Virus record (IMG/VR): IMGVR_UViG_3300042515_001753
Coordinates: 124,001-188,000 of that record
Length of the DNA stretch: 64,000 nucleotides
From: a virus
Direction: 5' to 3' (one strand)
The notes below the pieces were generated by a model, which worked only from the letters and a program-made list of their open reading frames with translations, was not told where the DNA came from and made no database searches. A program made the translations under genes and the position numbers. How positions within the stretch are numbered: position 1 is the stretch's first letter; each line of letters opens with the position of its first letter. This document shows, in pieces, positions 2,184 to 52,668 of the stretch.

Positions 2184-2354
2184 TTACTCTTTTTCTGAGA
2201 GAATGACTTCTTCTCCATCTAATGAGAATTTAATTTCAGTATCCTCATACCAAGAAAGTTCATTAATAATTTGCTCGGGAATAATCACAAAATATTTTCC
2301 TGTAATTGGATCAACCTGTACGGACTCAAAAATTTCTCCGGAATTTTTTTTCAT
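2184..2354 (-). CDS. AbrB/SpoVT-like small protein, 56 aa
   Basis: Contains KYFVIIPEQIINELSWYEDT followed by EIKFSLDGEEVILSEKE, the pattern of the swapped-hairpin AbrB/MazE DNA-binding fold (IP, then hydrophobic helix, then GD-type turn and a closing strand). Members are transcription regulators or antitoxins. Here it stands alone, 51 bases upstream of the glycosyltransferase gene, with no toxin beside it. The AT-rich leader (2355-2420) may hold its promoter, but no clear box was found. A longer AbrB-like gene lies at 43.0-43.7 kb. Confidence 0.6.
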   Translation of the reverse strand: MKKNSGEIFESVQVDPITGKYFVIIPEQIINELSWYEDTEIKFSLDGEEVILSEKE

Positions 2355-8937: not shown

Positions 8938-9357
8938 CTAGAACGAAGAACTAAACACATAACCATTCACGAAGTCAAAGTCATATGATAGATTCTGCTG
9001 CCAAGTTGCCTCCCAATCAATTACCAAACCAGAAGGAACATCACCGAGGTCACTATAGAATTCTTCAGCGAAGTCAGCACCATCAGCATAACACCCACGA
9101 TAAGCATCTTCTACGTGCTCAACATACGAAACACTACCTTGATATTCAATAAAGGCATCAACTACATCATAACCAATATTCTCACCAACACGAACATACT
9201 CATCATAATATGCCACGAAGTCATCCTCATTGTGCTCATCAATAAACTTGAGAGCATCATCTAAATCATACTCACCTTCAACACAGTTCTCCTCAATGAA
9301 CTCAACAGTTTCCAGTTTCAGAACTTCTTTGTAGTTGGCAGTCATCGTGATAGTCAT
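8938..9357 (-). CDS. ardA: ArdA-like antirestriction protein
   Basis: 139 aa from MTITMTANYKEVLKLE, chosen after the conserved leader. The C-terminal half (AYRGCYADGADFAEEFYSDL, then VIDWEATWQQNLSYDFDFVN and GYVFSS) follows the ArdA pattern: Y-G-Y-S-E-FAEE, then D-EA---L---F-V-GYVF. ArdA proteins are acidic DNA mimics that block type I restriction enzymes in the cytoplasm. This protein is strongly acidic, as expected. The usual N-terminal ArdA domain is short or diverged, so partial activity or a changed target is possible. Confidence 0.65.
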   Translation of the reverse strand: MTITMTANYKEVLKLETVEFIEENCVEGEYDLDDALKFIDEHNEDDFVAYYDEYVRVGENIGYDVVDAFIEYQGSVSYVEHVEDAYRGCYADGADFAEEFYSDLGDVPSGLVIDWEATWQQNLSYDFDFVNGYVFSSSF

Positions 9358-11157: not shown

Positions 11158-11186
11158 AGATTATATCATGCATAGTGACGATATGC
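11158..11186 (-). promoter_or_regulatory. Sigma-70-type promoter
   Basis: Minus strand TTGCAT, 17-base spacer, TATAAT. The -10 box directly follows the stop codon of the 46-aa gene, so that gene and the 50-aa gene are organised as successive single units. Confidence 0.6.
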
Positions 11187-11306
11187 AAGTGATTCGTAAT
11201 CATGTGCATCTCGCGCATAATCCTCGTCGAGATCTAGTGTATACCCGTCGAGATCATATGATGCATCGATGGTGTATGTATAGTCGAGATCGTAGTCGTC
11301 GTACAT
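11166..11306 (-). CDS. Acidic repeat-like peptide, 46 aa
   Basis: Reads MYDDYDLDYTYTIDASYDLD then GYTLDLDEDYARDAHDYESL. Asp and Tyr dominate because the palindromic CTCGAC units of this region fall in frame as Leu-Asp. It follows a promoter TTGCAG, 17 bases, TACAAT. It may be a real acidic peptide or a by-product of the operator array; no other copy was seen. Confidence 0.45.
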   Translation of the reverse strand: MYDDYDLDYTYTIDASYDLDGYTLDLDEDYARDAHDYESLAYRHYA

Positions 11307-11340
11307 AGCTCTTCGAGATGTGTATGTGTACTAGATGATT

Positions 11341-11374
11341 GTAGCACATATCTCGACGAGCTGCAAGTGTGTTC
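11341..11374 (-). promoter_or_regulatory. Sigma-70-type promoter with operator in spacer
   Basis: Minus strand TTGCAG, 17 bases, TACAAT; the spacer contains the palindrome at 11351-11360. It would transcribe the 46-aa gene and those beyond. Bound protein would block polymerase directly. Confidence 0.5.
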
Positions 11375-11433
11375 TCGACGAGATTGTTGTATGTATATAT
11401 GCGTTCTCGACTAGATTTTGTGTGCTTATGAGT

Positions 11434-11462
11434 ATTCTAGACTAGATTATGAGATTTGTCAA
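11434..11462 (-). promoter_or_regulatory. Sigma-70-type promoter with operator on -10
   Basis: Minus strand TTGACA, 17-base spacer, TAGAAT. The palindrome TCTAGACTAGA (11436-11446) overlaps the -10 box, and another copy lies just upstream of the -35 box at 11465-11475. Confidence 0.65.
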
Positions 11463-11514
11463 GGTCTCGTCGAGAATTTGTGTGGGTCTCAGAGTATTTT
11501 GGCGGGGGTGGGGC

Positions 11515-11543
11515 TTGACAAACTGCGATTCTTATGCTATACA
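11515..11543 (+). promoter_or_regulatory. Sigma-70-type promoter, plus strand
   Basis: TTGACA at 11515-11520, 17-base spacer, TATACA at 11538-11543. It points at the plus-strand gene starting at 11816 and is divergent from the minus-strand promoter about 50 bases away, with a palindrome between them. The leader RNA would be about 265 nt. Confidence 0.7.
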
Positions 11544-11556
11544 GGTAAAGGTTGCA

Positions 11557-11807
11557 ATAAGAACACACATTTATAAGCATTTAACTCATAAGAACACACA
11601 TTTATAAGTATTTTATCAGCATTTATAAGTATTTTATAAGTATTCTAACACATTTTCCCCAGAATACACCAGTTTTCCACAGGTTTTTCCACAACACTAT
11701 CAGTAATATAAGCAAATCATAACAAAAGAGTACCCTCACAATACTATAGTCGTTCTTTGCAATACTATAATAACATACATACAATACTATAATCGTTCTT
11801 TGCAATA
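11557..11807. repeat. AT-rich direct repeats in leader
   Basis: Two copies of ATAAGAACACACATTTATAA (from about 11557 and 11588), followed by several TTTATAAGTATT units, then two copies of a 27-base segment CAATACTATAATCGTTCTTT + GCAATAC (11739-11765 and 11781-11807, one mismatch). No gene. The repeats could be part of an origin or of leader control for the plus-strand gene. Confidence 0.55.
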
Positions 11808-11815
11808 CACCACAT

Positions 11816-12547
11816 ATGGCACAGGGTATAGTATACGTCATCATCAACAAAGAAACGGGGCACAAGTACCTGAATGCAACCACACTGTCGATGAATAAAG
11901 AATGGCAGAATCACATTCAGGCATCAAACAGAATGTCCACTCAACTTATACACAGAGCATTCCGTCAATATGGACTACACAAGTTCATGATTAAACAGAT
12001 TGATGAATGTGATGAGAAAATACTGGAAGATAAGGTAACTTATTGGTTTGAACAATATAAACCAGAATATAATGATCCTCTACCCAAAAAGAAACCAGAA
12101 CCTATTATTATTGAAGAACCTGTTGTTGTAATAAAAGAAAAGAAATCAACCTGGAGACAAATTAAACCAGAAGAAAGATCAACCGGTAAATGTTTAAGTA
12201 TCAGAGTTCAGGGTACACATATTGAAACAGGTGAAGTTAAGGAATGGGAGAATGCCAGAGCTGCTGCATTAGAAATTACGGGAGATAAAAAAAGAAACAG
12301 TAACGTATTAAATGCCGCAAAGAAAGGTAATACCTACTATGGATACAGATGGAAAGTATTAGACACAAAAACTCATAAACGATCAGTCAAAGGAGTACAT
12401 AAAGTGACTCACGTTGAAGTTCATTATGAAAGCATTAGTGAGGCAATACGACAGATAGGTGATGGTAGTAATGGAAGTGGTTTGTTAAAGAGTCTACGCA
12501 ATCCCAACAAATATACCTACAAAGGTTTCTTATGGTTTTATGAATAA
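11816..12547 (+). CDS. Degenerate GIY-YIG protein with DNA-binding repeats
   Basis: 243 aa. N-terminus GIVYVIINKETGHKYLNATT aligns with GIY-YIG nucleases, but YIG is KYLN, the catalytic arginine position reads NKEWQNH, and the catalytic glutamate before YW is V (DKVTYWFEQY). The middle is a charged linker (PLPKKKPEPIIIEEPVVVIK). The C-terminal half has two NUMOD1-like modules (WENARAAALEITGDKKRNSN and YESISEAIRQIGDGSNGSGL), typical sequence-specific DNA binders. So it likely binds but does not cut DNA. It is the only complete plus-strand gene, with its own promoter beside the palindrome array, which fits a regulator. Confidence 0.6.
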   Translation: MAQGIVYVIINKETGHKYLNATTLSMNKEWQNHIQASNRMSTQLIHRAFRQYGLHKFMIKQIDECDEKILEDKVTYWFEQYKPEYNDPLPKKKPEPIIIEEPVVVIKEKKSTWRQIKPEERSTGKCLSIRVQGTHIETGEVKEWENARAAALEITGDKKRNSNVLNAAKKGNTYYGYRWKVLDTKTHKRSVKGVHKVTHVEVHYESISEAIRQIGDGSNGSGLLKSLRNPNKYTYKGFLWFYE

Positions 12548-42867: not shown

Positions 42868-43024
42868 CGTTTTCCTCCTCAAATAACATACAATCAATAC
42901 AGGACTTTATTTCCAACATATCATCCTTAGAAAGTCCATCTAAGGTAATTGCTTGCTTCTCAAACGCAACGGTGATATTATAAACTTCACCATCAAATCC
43001 ACCACAGGTTTGTATAGTTCTCAT
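42845..43024 (-). CDS. Hypothetical protein, 59 aa
   Basis: MRTIQTCGGFDGEVYNITVA, EIKSCIDCMLFEEENDGTIK: three cysteines with CIDC. ATGA overlap upstream, 23-base overlap downstream. Confidence 0.55.
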   Translation of the reverse strand: MRTIQTCGGFDGEVYNITVAFEKQAITLDGLSKDDMLEIKSCIDCMLFEEENDGTIKIS

Positions 43025-43704
43025 TCTTTAATCCAGAAACCATCATCAGTCATAGTCCAACCAGCAGCAATTGCCTCATCGTGATTTAAGGTCTTTTCAA
43101 TCTTTCGCAGAAGAAAAGTACCATCATTCCTATCCACCCATTCTACATCATCACCTTGTTTAAGATTTGCTGCTTCCAACAAGTCATCGGGGAAGGTGAT
43201 AAAGTATTCAGTTTCTCCAGTATCACCATTCTCCACTTCTTCTACAGGAAGTTGCCACTTGACTACTTTATCTTTCTTTGAATTTGCAATAAGATACTCC
43301 AAGTCACTATGTCCCCAAGGTGGCATACAATCATCCTTTACTTCTTCTGAGTCCCAAAAGTTATTCCAAGCACCTTTACACTCTGGTGATGAGTCATCTT
43401 TATCGCAGGTGACTGGAGAAATATAAGAAGGAGTCATATTTCCTGCCGTATCAACATTAAAAAAGGCAGTATTCTCTTCTTTACCGGCAACAACAGTCTC
43501 TTGCCAGGCAAGTTTGAACTTTTCATCAAACTCATTCAGATAGTATTCAAGAAACTCATAAGCAGCAGACATCATAGTTTCTGCTTTATCGTATTGATGT
43601 TCTTGAATCCTATCTATTGCAGCATCAATAATCTCACGGGCAGAACAAATCTTGGATGTAATCATCTCAAGTTCGTTCATCGTTTCCCAGACTTTATTTA
43701 CCAT
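43021..43704 (-). CDS. AbrB-like protein with helical domain, 227 aa
   Basis: Residues 1-70 are helical (MVNKVWETMNELEMITSKIC and on). Residues about 140-195 carry the AbrB/MazE hairpin: EYFITFPDDLLEAANLKQGD then DVEWVDRNDGTFLLRKI. The end (GWTMTDDGFWIKE) is a short tail. AbrB-type domains bind DNA as dimers; similar proteins occur in cyanophages. A transcription role is inferred. Confidence 0.7.
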   Translation of the reverse strand: MVNKVWETMNELEMITSKICSAREIIDAAIDRIQEHQYDKAETMMSAAYEFLEYYLNEFDEKFKLAWQETVVAGKEENTAFFNVDTAGNMTPSYISPVTCDKDDSSPECKGAWNNFWDSEEVKDDCMPPWGHSDLEYLIANSKKDKVVKWQLPVEEVENGDTGETEYFITFPDDLLEAANLKQGDDVEWVDRNDGTFLLRKIEKTLNHDEAIAAGWTMTDDGFWIKE

Positions 43705-43882
43705 GTCGTTTGAGTTCCTCCTCAACTGCTTGCTGTACTATAACCTGAATCTCAGCAGAAGTCAACCCATTTAACCACTTCCAGTTCGGGTCTTCCTTGT
43801 CCCAGTCCATCGTAAATGAACCATCGGCATTTTCAGTAATCTTAAGAGTATCAATCTCTTGGTTTGGGTTTGTTACACTCAT
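43694..43882 (-). CDS. Hypothetical protein, 62 aa
   Basis: MSVTNPNQEIDTLKITENAD, GSFTMDWDKEDPNWKWLNGL, TSAEIQVIVQQAVEEELKRH. A conserved cyanophage type. Overlaps the AbrB-like gene by 11 bases. Confidence 0.65.
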   Translation of the reverse strand: MSVTNPNQEIDTLKITENADGSFTMDWDKEDPNWKWLNGLTSAEIQVIVQQAVEEELKRHGK

Positions 43883-51432: not shown

Positions 51433-52668
51433 TCAGCGATTGATTGTGCTGACTGCAACGTCTCCCTGCTTAAAGATGATGTCCACCACGTTCTGGACCT
51501 TCTGTGCGGTGCCCGTAGATGCCTTGTCAAAGGTCGGGCAGATGACCAGACCATAGGATTTGGTGTAGGAGTCCAAAGCACCTGCCTGAAGGGCACCAGA
51601 GCGGATTCCAGCGGCATCTGCAGGGTGAAGGCGCAGCGTCCGCCCAACGGTCTGACCGATGCCCACGATGTCCATAGAGCGCATAAACACGACCGCTTCC
51701 AGAGCAGAGATGTTGATGCCTTCTGCCAAAATGCTGTGATGAAGAACCACAAACTTCTTGTCTGCATCCTTACCCCATTCGTTGAGAGTGTCAAAGAACA
51801 CCTCACGATTCACCTTATCACCATCAATAAATGCACCGTGCTTAGAAGTGATGTGCATCACAGAATAACCTTCCTCTGCCAGTTGTTCGGCAAAGTCAGT
51901 TTCGGAAAGCAAACCAATAATGTGCTTGGTTGCCTTGGCACAAATCAGAATCTTATCAACGGGATTGTCCTGAATGGTCTGAAGAAGATACTCACAGTCA
52001 CGCTGAGCAATATCCTCACCCTTGACAGAAAGGCGCATTTGAGTTGCAATCACCTTAGGAGGAATGATGTAACCGTTCTGAACCAGTTGAGGAGCAGGAA
52101 CCTTAGCGATGATGCTACCGTAGACCTCAGTATCATTCATACCTGCCTTACCAATTACATTACTGTATTTGGGAGTGGCGGTGAAGAAGAAACAACGCTC
52201 TGCCTCTGCACTGAAATACTCTACCGCAGGGAAGAAATGGCGTTGAATGCTATTGTGCGCCTCATCAAACAAAGTAGTGTTGACTTTAATATCAGCACGT
52301 TGAAGTTGCTGTAGAGAATTATAGGTAGTGAAGATAAGTTTGTGACCTTGTGTTTGTTCGTACCAAGTACGAATTACACTAGGTTTCGTGGTGCTAAAAT
52401 GTCTAGTTTCTCCCGAGTGGATATGAAGAACAGAAGCGTTGGTGATGAACTCCAAATATTCACTAGAAAGTTGTTCTGCCAACAAAATACGAGGACTAAC
52501 AACTACAATAGTCTTAGGAGCATCAGACTTGAATTGCTCCATCGCATCAAAGATACCAACGTTGGTCTTACCACCACCGGTAGGAAACACACAGATACCT
52601 TTAGAATGCTGTTGCAGAGCATTCAGGGCATCTTGCTGGTGGGGACGGAGTTGAATCACGTTTCTCAT
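51433..52668 (-). CDS. DEAD/DEAH-box superfamily 2 helicase
   Basis: 411 aa. Q-like LRPHQQDALNAL, motif I FPTGGGKTNVG, motif II LFDEAHNS (DEAH), motif III FFTATPKYS, and motif VI IGQTVGRTLRLHPAD. It unwinds or remodels nucleic acid with ATP; similar to T4 UvsW-type and type I restriction helicases. The compact size suits a phage UvsW-like role in recombination or replication switching. Behind the strong terminator/promoter cassette at 52683. Confidence 0.85.
   Translation of the reverse strand: MRNVIQLRPHQQDALNALQQHSKGICVFPTGGGKTNVGIFDAMEQFKSDAPKTIVVVSPRILLAEQLSSEYLEFITNASVLHIHSGETRHFSTTKPSVIRTWYEQTQGHKLIFTTYNSLQQLQRADIKVNTTLFDEAHNSIQRHFFPAVEYFSAEAERCFFFTATPKYSNVIGKAGMNDTEVYGSIIAKVPAPQLVQNGYIIPPKVIATQMRLSVKGEDIAQRDCEYLLQTIQDNPVDKILICAKATKHIIGLLSETDFAEQLAEEGYSVMHITSKHGAFIDGDKVNREVFFDTLNEWGKDADKKFVVLHHSILAEGINISALEAVVFMRSMDIVGIGQTVGRTLRLHPADAAGIRSGALQAGALDSYTKSYGLVICPTFDKASTGTAQKVQNVVDIIFKQGDVAVSTINR

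Follow-up and report, generated by a model that had tools for sequence, protein, structure and literature searches.

The question raised by this locus is whether a row of short palindromes lying over divergent promoters serves as the operator of a genetic switch, as the preliminary description of the sequence had proposed, or belongs to a replication origin, which was named there as the main alternative. The locus was examined within a window of 64,000 nucleotides, corresponding to bases 124001-188000 of a 233,886-base IMG/VR virus contig. The closest relatives of the tail-fibre gene in the window are found in cyanophages S-SKS1, S-SRM01 and P-SSM2, and on this basis the phage is taken to be a T4-like cyanomyovirus, a virus of photosynthetic bacteria of the sea and of lakes; cyanomyoviruses are abundant in the sea. 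In the open-access literature, most subscription journals being outside the scope of the search, no paper was found that describes the palindrome array, that reports sequence elements for the replication origin of a cyanomyovirus or that identifies any sequence-specific repressor acting on cyanomyovirus early genes.

Megablast of the array region against phages gave no match, and relatives were reached via distant and protein searches. Related loci were gathered through a neighbouring gene and not through the palindrome motif itself: the phrog_12516 gene on the left side of the array was used as the marker, and a total of 73 viral loci were collected. The features of the locus are listed in Table 1.

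Table 1. Features of the array locus and its surroundings in the window
Feature	Position	Strand	Basis
AbrB/MazE-like small protein, candidate array binder	2187..2354	-	co-occurrence, weak profiles, predicted fold
Next gene of leftward cassette, phrog_12516 family, 50 aa	10982..11134	-	locus marker in relatives
Acidic ORF MYDDYDLDYTY...LAYRHYA, 46 aa	11166..11306	-	conserved; codon-position pattern
Array of nine 11-bp palindromes, consensus TCTMGWCKAGA	11222..11475	none	pattern search and conservation in relatives
Leftward promoter P_L, TTGCAG-17-TACAAT	11338..11366	-	conserved geometry in relatives
Second leftward promoter, TTGACA-17-TAGAAT	11434..11462	-	same hexamers readable in loci L010 and L020
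Third promoter-like string, TTGTCA-17-AATACT, weak	11493..11521	-	string match in window
Rightward promoter P_R, TTGACA-17-TATACA	11515..11543	+	conserved in relatives
AT-rich direct repeats of CATTTATAAGTATTTTAT type, candidate unwinding element	11544..11672	+	sequence composition
Two DnaA boxes TTTTCCACA	11673-11681, 11685-11693	+	enrichment at locus in relatives
Homing-endonuclease-like gene, phrog_3404	11816..12547	+	family match

Palindrome array and its conservation

All nine palindromes claimed in the preliminary description were confirmed, with starts on the plus strand at 11222, 11243, 11279, 11308, 11351, 11373, 11405, 11436 and 11465. Four of these match the consensus perfectly, three with one mismatch and two with two mismatches. 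The centre-to-centre distances are 21, 36, 29, 43, 22, 32, 31 and 29 bp, in agreement with the claimed spacing of 20-37 bp for most gaps but not for the one gap of 43 bp. Seven sites with one mismatch or less are packed inside 254 bp; when 20 copies of the window were generated by a first-order Markov model, the maximum was one such site per 300 bp. When up to two mismatches were allowed on both strands, TCTCGACGAGA was matched 21 times in the window, as compared with 8.9 +- 3.4 times in shuffles, and 14 of these 21 matches fall within the array stretch. Outside the array, a pattern search of the whole 233,886-bp contig gave only one more match with one mismatch or less, and no second palindrome cluster was found in it.

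The search of relatives for the motif, which had been proposed as a check, gave a positive answer: in more than 60 of the 73 related loci, a cluster of the same palindromes is located directly upstream of the marker gene. The absence of the motif from close relatives, named beforehand as a ground for refutation, was thus not observed. Perfect matches to the motif in 669 kb of related loci amounted to 318, versus 0-3 for each of five rearranged palindromes. Orthologous arrays are also carried by the named phages S-SRM01, S-T4 and P-SSM2, and S-SKS1 has two perfect palindromes plus many ATCTCGT half-sites. In the loci L035, L039 and L070-L072, rows of half-sites (ATCTCGT, for example) stand in place of the palindromes.

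The variation within the motif bears on the nature of the target. Among 218 distinct contexts, the pair at positions 4 and 8 was CG in 129, AG in 48, CT in 24 and AT in 17, that is, the two positions vary nearly independently (Fisher p=0.09), which indicates that the target is double-stranded DNA half-sites and not an RNA hairpin. Such behaviour is expected if each site is composed of one half-site for each subunit of a DNA-binding dimer. At -1, the base is A in 89% of the sites and the mirror-image T on the other side is absent, indicating that the true site is slightly asymmetric. Should the palindromes act instead in RNA, as repeated hairpins of the leftward transcript, the region might be expected to fold well, and it does fold better than its shuffles (z -3.2), though the same would hold for any sequence rich in palindromes. 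However, positions 4 and 8 are unable to pair in 72 of the 218 sites, the stem would be of only four pairs with a three-base loop, and some of the sites are already upstream of where the leftward transcripts begin. Given this half-site variation together with the absence of Rfam matches, a role as RNA hairpins is for practical purposes ruled out.

Some relatives carry second or third clusters of two to six of the same palindromes, mostly intergenic and 1.3-6.3 kb down the leftward cassette (L064:8457-8580, L064:12050-12098, L059:9522-9619, L027:2540-2698 and L068:4556-4650); the window has none. At most of the downstream clusters inspected, strong sigma-70 promoters were absent. In S-SRM01 (L080:1688-1812), a second row of five near-palindromes, each with one mismatch, is located about 2.5 kb down the cassette.

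Leftward promoters and operator geometry

The leftward cassette around the array is composed of small minus-strand genes. The gene nearest to the leftward promoter, the MYDDY ORF, overlaps part of the array. When its changes were counted by codon position over pairs, third positions (13747) changed about twice as often as the other two (7314 and 6286), from which the ORF is concluded to be real; this excess rules out the view that it is a mere accident of the repeats. The protein is tiny, very acidic, tyrosine-rich and conserved, and is encoded behind the leftward promoter; it could be a DNA mimic. Further down the cassette, the gene at 8938-9357 belongs to a phage anti-restriction family (phrog_36653, E 3e-32).

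The sites at 11222-11289 lie inside the MYDDY ORF and encode its DLD(E) repeats, and one might suppose that the palindromes are no more than the by-product of a repetitive DLDE-coding gene. This supposition deserves hardly any credence, being already contradicted by the noncoding sites: the site at 11308-11318 is upstream of the ATG, five more, including the best ones, are in the noncoding promoter region, and relatives have clusters elsewhere in the cassette.

The preliminary description had listed three minus-strand promoters with 17-bp spacers and had placed palindromes on a -10 box, in a spacer and beside a -35 box; the strings are present and the positions are correct. The palindrome at 11351-11361 is situated at the start of the P_L spacer, and the ATG at 11306 follows P_L at a distance of 31 bp. 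At the second leftward promoter, the site at 11436-11446 overlaps the -10 element and the site at 11465-11475 is immediately upstream of the -35 element. Taken together, promoter-like strings are no more frequent in the region than expected (34 as against 36.7), so that support for any of them must come from conservation, and the conserved ones are the TTGCAG promoter and the plus-strand promoter. Near the MYDDYDLDY ORF, a promoter of the TTGNNN or TTTGCA type with a spacer of 17-18 bp was detected in 48 of 49 distinct upstream regions, the consensus in relatives being TTGNNN-17/18-TAtAaT at about 30 bp upstream of the ORF. A palindrome is placed in a fixed register, five or six bases after the start of the -35 element, in at least 40 of the 49 regions, four of the remaining regions having been scored on an alternative, probably wrong, choice of promoter. 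The array-less phage S-SM2 has a TTGACA-17-TATAAT string at the place corresponding to P_L. Such overlap with core promoter elements, in a register that is conserved, is what is expected of operators, and the proposal that the array works like an operator array has, at the level of sequence comparison, moderate to good support.

As to the repressor-controlled switch proposed earlier, the part that stands is the placement of operator-type sites on a conserved leftward promoter, and the part without support is the temperate style of the switch. For an immunity switch of the temperate-phage type, divergent promoters would be accompanied by a repressor gene on one arm, and no repressor gene was found on either arm of the array. 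Among the first leftward ORFs, no match to a regulator was detected.

Rightward promoter, AT-rich repeats and DnaA boxes

The plus-strand TTGACA-17-TATACA promoter, already noted in the earlier description, is present and conserved. Of 69 loci, close relatives being counted separately, 58 have a TTGACA-type promoter no more than 140 bp to the right of the array, as compared with 276 of 1380 random windows, and the spacer of the promoter at the loci is nearly always 17 bp. Rightward promoters of the same type are also present in the array-less phages Syn1, S-PM2, S-SM2 and S-SCSM1. Downstream of P_R, the AT content of the stretch 11544-11815 is 70.6%, versus 61.3% for the window, and the locus shows one arrangement looked for in an origin, that is, repeated sites of the initiator type beside AT-rich repeats.

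The sequence TTTTCCACA is the cyanobacterial DnaA-box consensus (PMC4674748), and the pair at 11673-11693, a grouping of the kind looked for in an origin, is the only close pair in the contig. With duplicates kept, 50 boxes were counted in 48.7 kb right of the arrays as against 20 in 568 kb elsewhere. After removal of duplicates, 17 of 52 distinct loci had a box in the 450 bp to the right of their arrays, as compared with 13 of 1821 random windows (p ~2e-20 by a statistic that ignores relatedness), and 37 of the 38 boxes right of the arrays were on one strand. A box pair of 23-25 nt identical to that of the window was found in Syn1, S-RIM44, S-CAM1 and S-CAM3, and in Syn1, S-PM2d, Syn9, S-SM2 and S-SKS1 the only tight DnaA-box group of the genome is located at this locus. 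The array-less phages Syn1, S-PM2 and S-SM2 retain the promoter, the AT-rich DNA and the boxes, so that the module of promoter and boxes has a wider distribution than the array. Exact boxes within 450 bp are absent from two thirds of the distinct array-bearing loci, and none is found at the locus in array-bearing S-T4, S-SRM01 and P-SSM2.

From these features, for which the comparative evidence is good, the locus beside the array is a probable replication origin. The origin, put forward earlier as the main alternative to a switch, does have its features flanking the array (DnaA boxes, AT-rich repeats and a rightward promoter), but it is probably an adjoining part of the same locus and not an alternative to it. 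GC skew showed no sharp turn at the array in the window, and in Syn9 it rises without a turn and is uninformative on the origin.

An AT element, TTTTTTAATACCTTTTTTAATT, is present about 210-390 bp right of the array (for example, L034:5250-5450) in about twelve lineages, some having DnaA boxes and others not; no good match to it was found in the window.

The product of the plus-strand gene had been suggested as the protein binding to the array. This suggestion failed, as the gene matches phage homing-endonuclease families and no plus-strand gene is present at the locus in the annotated relatives S-SRM01, S-T4, S-SKS1 and P-SSM2. The gene was probably inserted at a later time next to the origin module. 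Plus-strand frames start beside the DnaA boxes, or beside the place of these, in L046, L035, L039 and L010 as well, and the spot looks as if it were a preferred site of insertion.

With an origin probable at this locus, the palindromes might be purely replication iterons, that is, initiator-binding sites of a plasmid- or lambda-like origin, whose overlap with the promoters is incidental or serves only for autorepression by the initiator. The locus resembles the origins of lambda and the iteron plasmids (lambda O iterons, P1 oriR and R6K) in its row of repeated sites beside AT-rich DNA, in the location of some sites within a small gene (the lambda iterons are located inside gene O) and in transcription alongside the origin. 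P1 oriR also contains DnaA boxes, to which the repeats of the present locus are likewise adjacent, and in L035 half-site repeats are found right of the rightward promoter, too. Such a reading is opposed by the fixed operator register of the array in the spacer of the leftward promoter, by the additional clusters further down the cassette and by the persistence of the promoter and DnaA boxes in Syn1, S-PM2 and S-SM2, in which the array is missing. The phage differs from these systems also in having a T4-type replisome, and no initiator-like gene was recognised among the neighbouring ORFs scanned, a set including small uncharacterised ORFs. Pure iterons are thus possible but clearly the less probable explanation.

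The opposite simplification takes the array as an operator only, and the DnaA boxes as a DnaA-regulated or DnaA-titrating site instead of an origin. Many array-bearing lineages are devoid of exact boxes, T4-like phages have a replisome of their own, and T4 origins are not known to use DnaA, all in line with an operator without an origin. What makes it rather improbable is that across cyanophage genera the boxes occur together with AT-rich DNA and with a promoter that points into a stretch without any conserved plus-strand gene.

A probable origin adjoining an operator array, the reading preferred here, may be compared with the known origins of T4 and of the host. The T4 origins (oriF, oriG and oriE) likewise belong to a T4-type phage and have a promoter directed into AT-rich DNA. 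A promoter of this kind could prime an R-loop, and oriF and oriG use middle promoters; the present locus, unlike these, has a sigma-70 promoter close to the consensus, together with DnaA boxes of the host type. With cyanobacterial oriC the locus shares TTTTCCACA boxes in close groups (PMC4674748), but it is located in a phage, beside an operator array, and no dnaN or dnaA gene was seen in the cassette. A passage of one review gives a single theta origin as predicted for Syn9 (PMC2984593). The only closely spaced DnaA-box pair of Syn9 (52565-52597) is at a place resembling the promoter-box module of Syn1.

A role of the array in packaging (as a pac site), partition or recombination was also considered. 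The density of reads from S-PM2d virions rises 2-3 fold immediately downstream of the deleted ORFanage, an increase that the authors of that work ascribed to terminal redundancy (PMC4503421), and the orthologous locus is about 4 kb from the deletion junction. The rise in read density is ambiguous as evidence. The S-PM2 locus is without the TCTMGWCKAGA array, in Syn9 a long distance separates the locus (52.6 kb) from the terminase genes (102 and 109 kb), and the operator register is left unexplained; a site of this kind is considered very unlikely.

Candidate binding protein and proposed control of the locus

For the protein that might bind the array, three array-bearing isolates were compared with three array-less ones. 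Among the ORFs common to S-T4, P-SSM2 and S-SRM01 and missing in Syn9, Syn1 and S-SM2, one is DNA-binding-like, an AbrB/MazE-like protein of 59 aa. Its counterpart in the window is encoded about 9 kb down the leftward cassette from the array and is present, by protein search, in a single copy in the contig. Among the homologue loci in viral contigs, 14 extend 9 kb or more upstream, and in all 14 of them, about 11 being independent, a site cluster was found upstream. Distant homologues exist in the array-less phages ACG-2014f, S-CAM7 and Sf-CH8.

The profile matches of the protein point consistently, if weakly, to MazE and AbrB. The PF04014 score of the window protein is 15.7 bits versus a cut-off of 24.7; across the members of the family, 16 of 26 fall below E=1, with 0.0017 as the best value. 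The homologue in S-SRM01 is annotated as a DNA-binding domain protein. The structural model is of moderate confidence (pLDDT 75.6), and the top Foldseek matches are MazE (2mrn/1ub4), AbrB (9a4b/1yfb) and SpoVT (2w1t), with a probability for MazE/AbrB of 0.97-0.98 and E of about 0.1. The protein shares with the swapped-hairpin proteins AbrB, MazE and SpoVT the predicted strands, helix and strand pair, but differs from this family in that it stays below the Pfam cut-off, its NCBIfam matches are weak and its binding to the motif is putative. On this correlative evidence, the AbrB/MazE-like protein is the best candidate for the array binder and is offered as a lead only.

A minus-strand protein of 234 aa (43024-43725), with a homologue in S-SRM01, resembles MazE/AbrB in its C-terminal domain (PF04014 E 7e-5, slightly short of the cut-off), and is a possible second regulator.

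Altogether, the locus may be described as the control region of the leftward early cassette adjoining a probable origin, in which a dimer bound to the array would repress transcription and be coupled to origin firing, a description that we hold with a little more than even confidence. The row of 11-bp palindromes would be occupied by a DNA-binding dimer, which is probably a phage product. Bound within the spacer of the principal leftward promoter and over the second -10 element, the dimer would block RNA polymerase, and the leftward early genes would be turned off once the binding protein had accumulated. The rightward promoter is predicted to read into the AT-rich repeats and the host-type DnaA boxes; the rightward transcript and host DnaA would open the DNA, and replication would start with the phage's own replisome. 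In this way, the protein on the array may couple the end of early leftward transcription to the firing of the origin.

A more general scheme, which is tentative and for now well short of probable, is that T4-like cyanophages possess one conserved origin using host DnaA, and that one large branch of them has fused to it the palindrome array; by way of this array, an AbrB/MazE-like protein of the phage would shut off the adjoining early promoters and time the firing. The 11-bp target and the small candidate protein are open to a direct binding test, and the locus provides exact coordinates for the questions of the origin and the early repressor in the cultured phages Syn9, S-PM2, Syn1, P-SSM2 and S-SKS1, being situated, for instance, at 9.7 kb in S-PM2d and at 66 kb in P-SSM2. 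The organization of the locus suggests that a T4-type phage may use the DnaA protein of its host.
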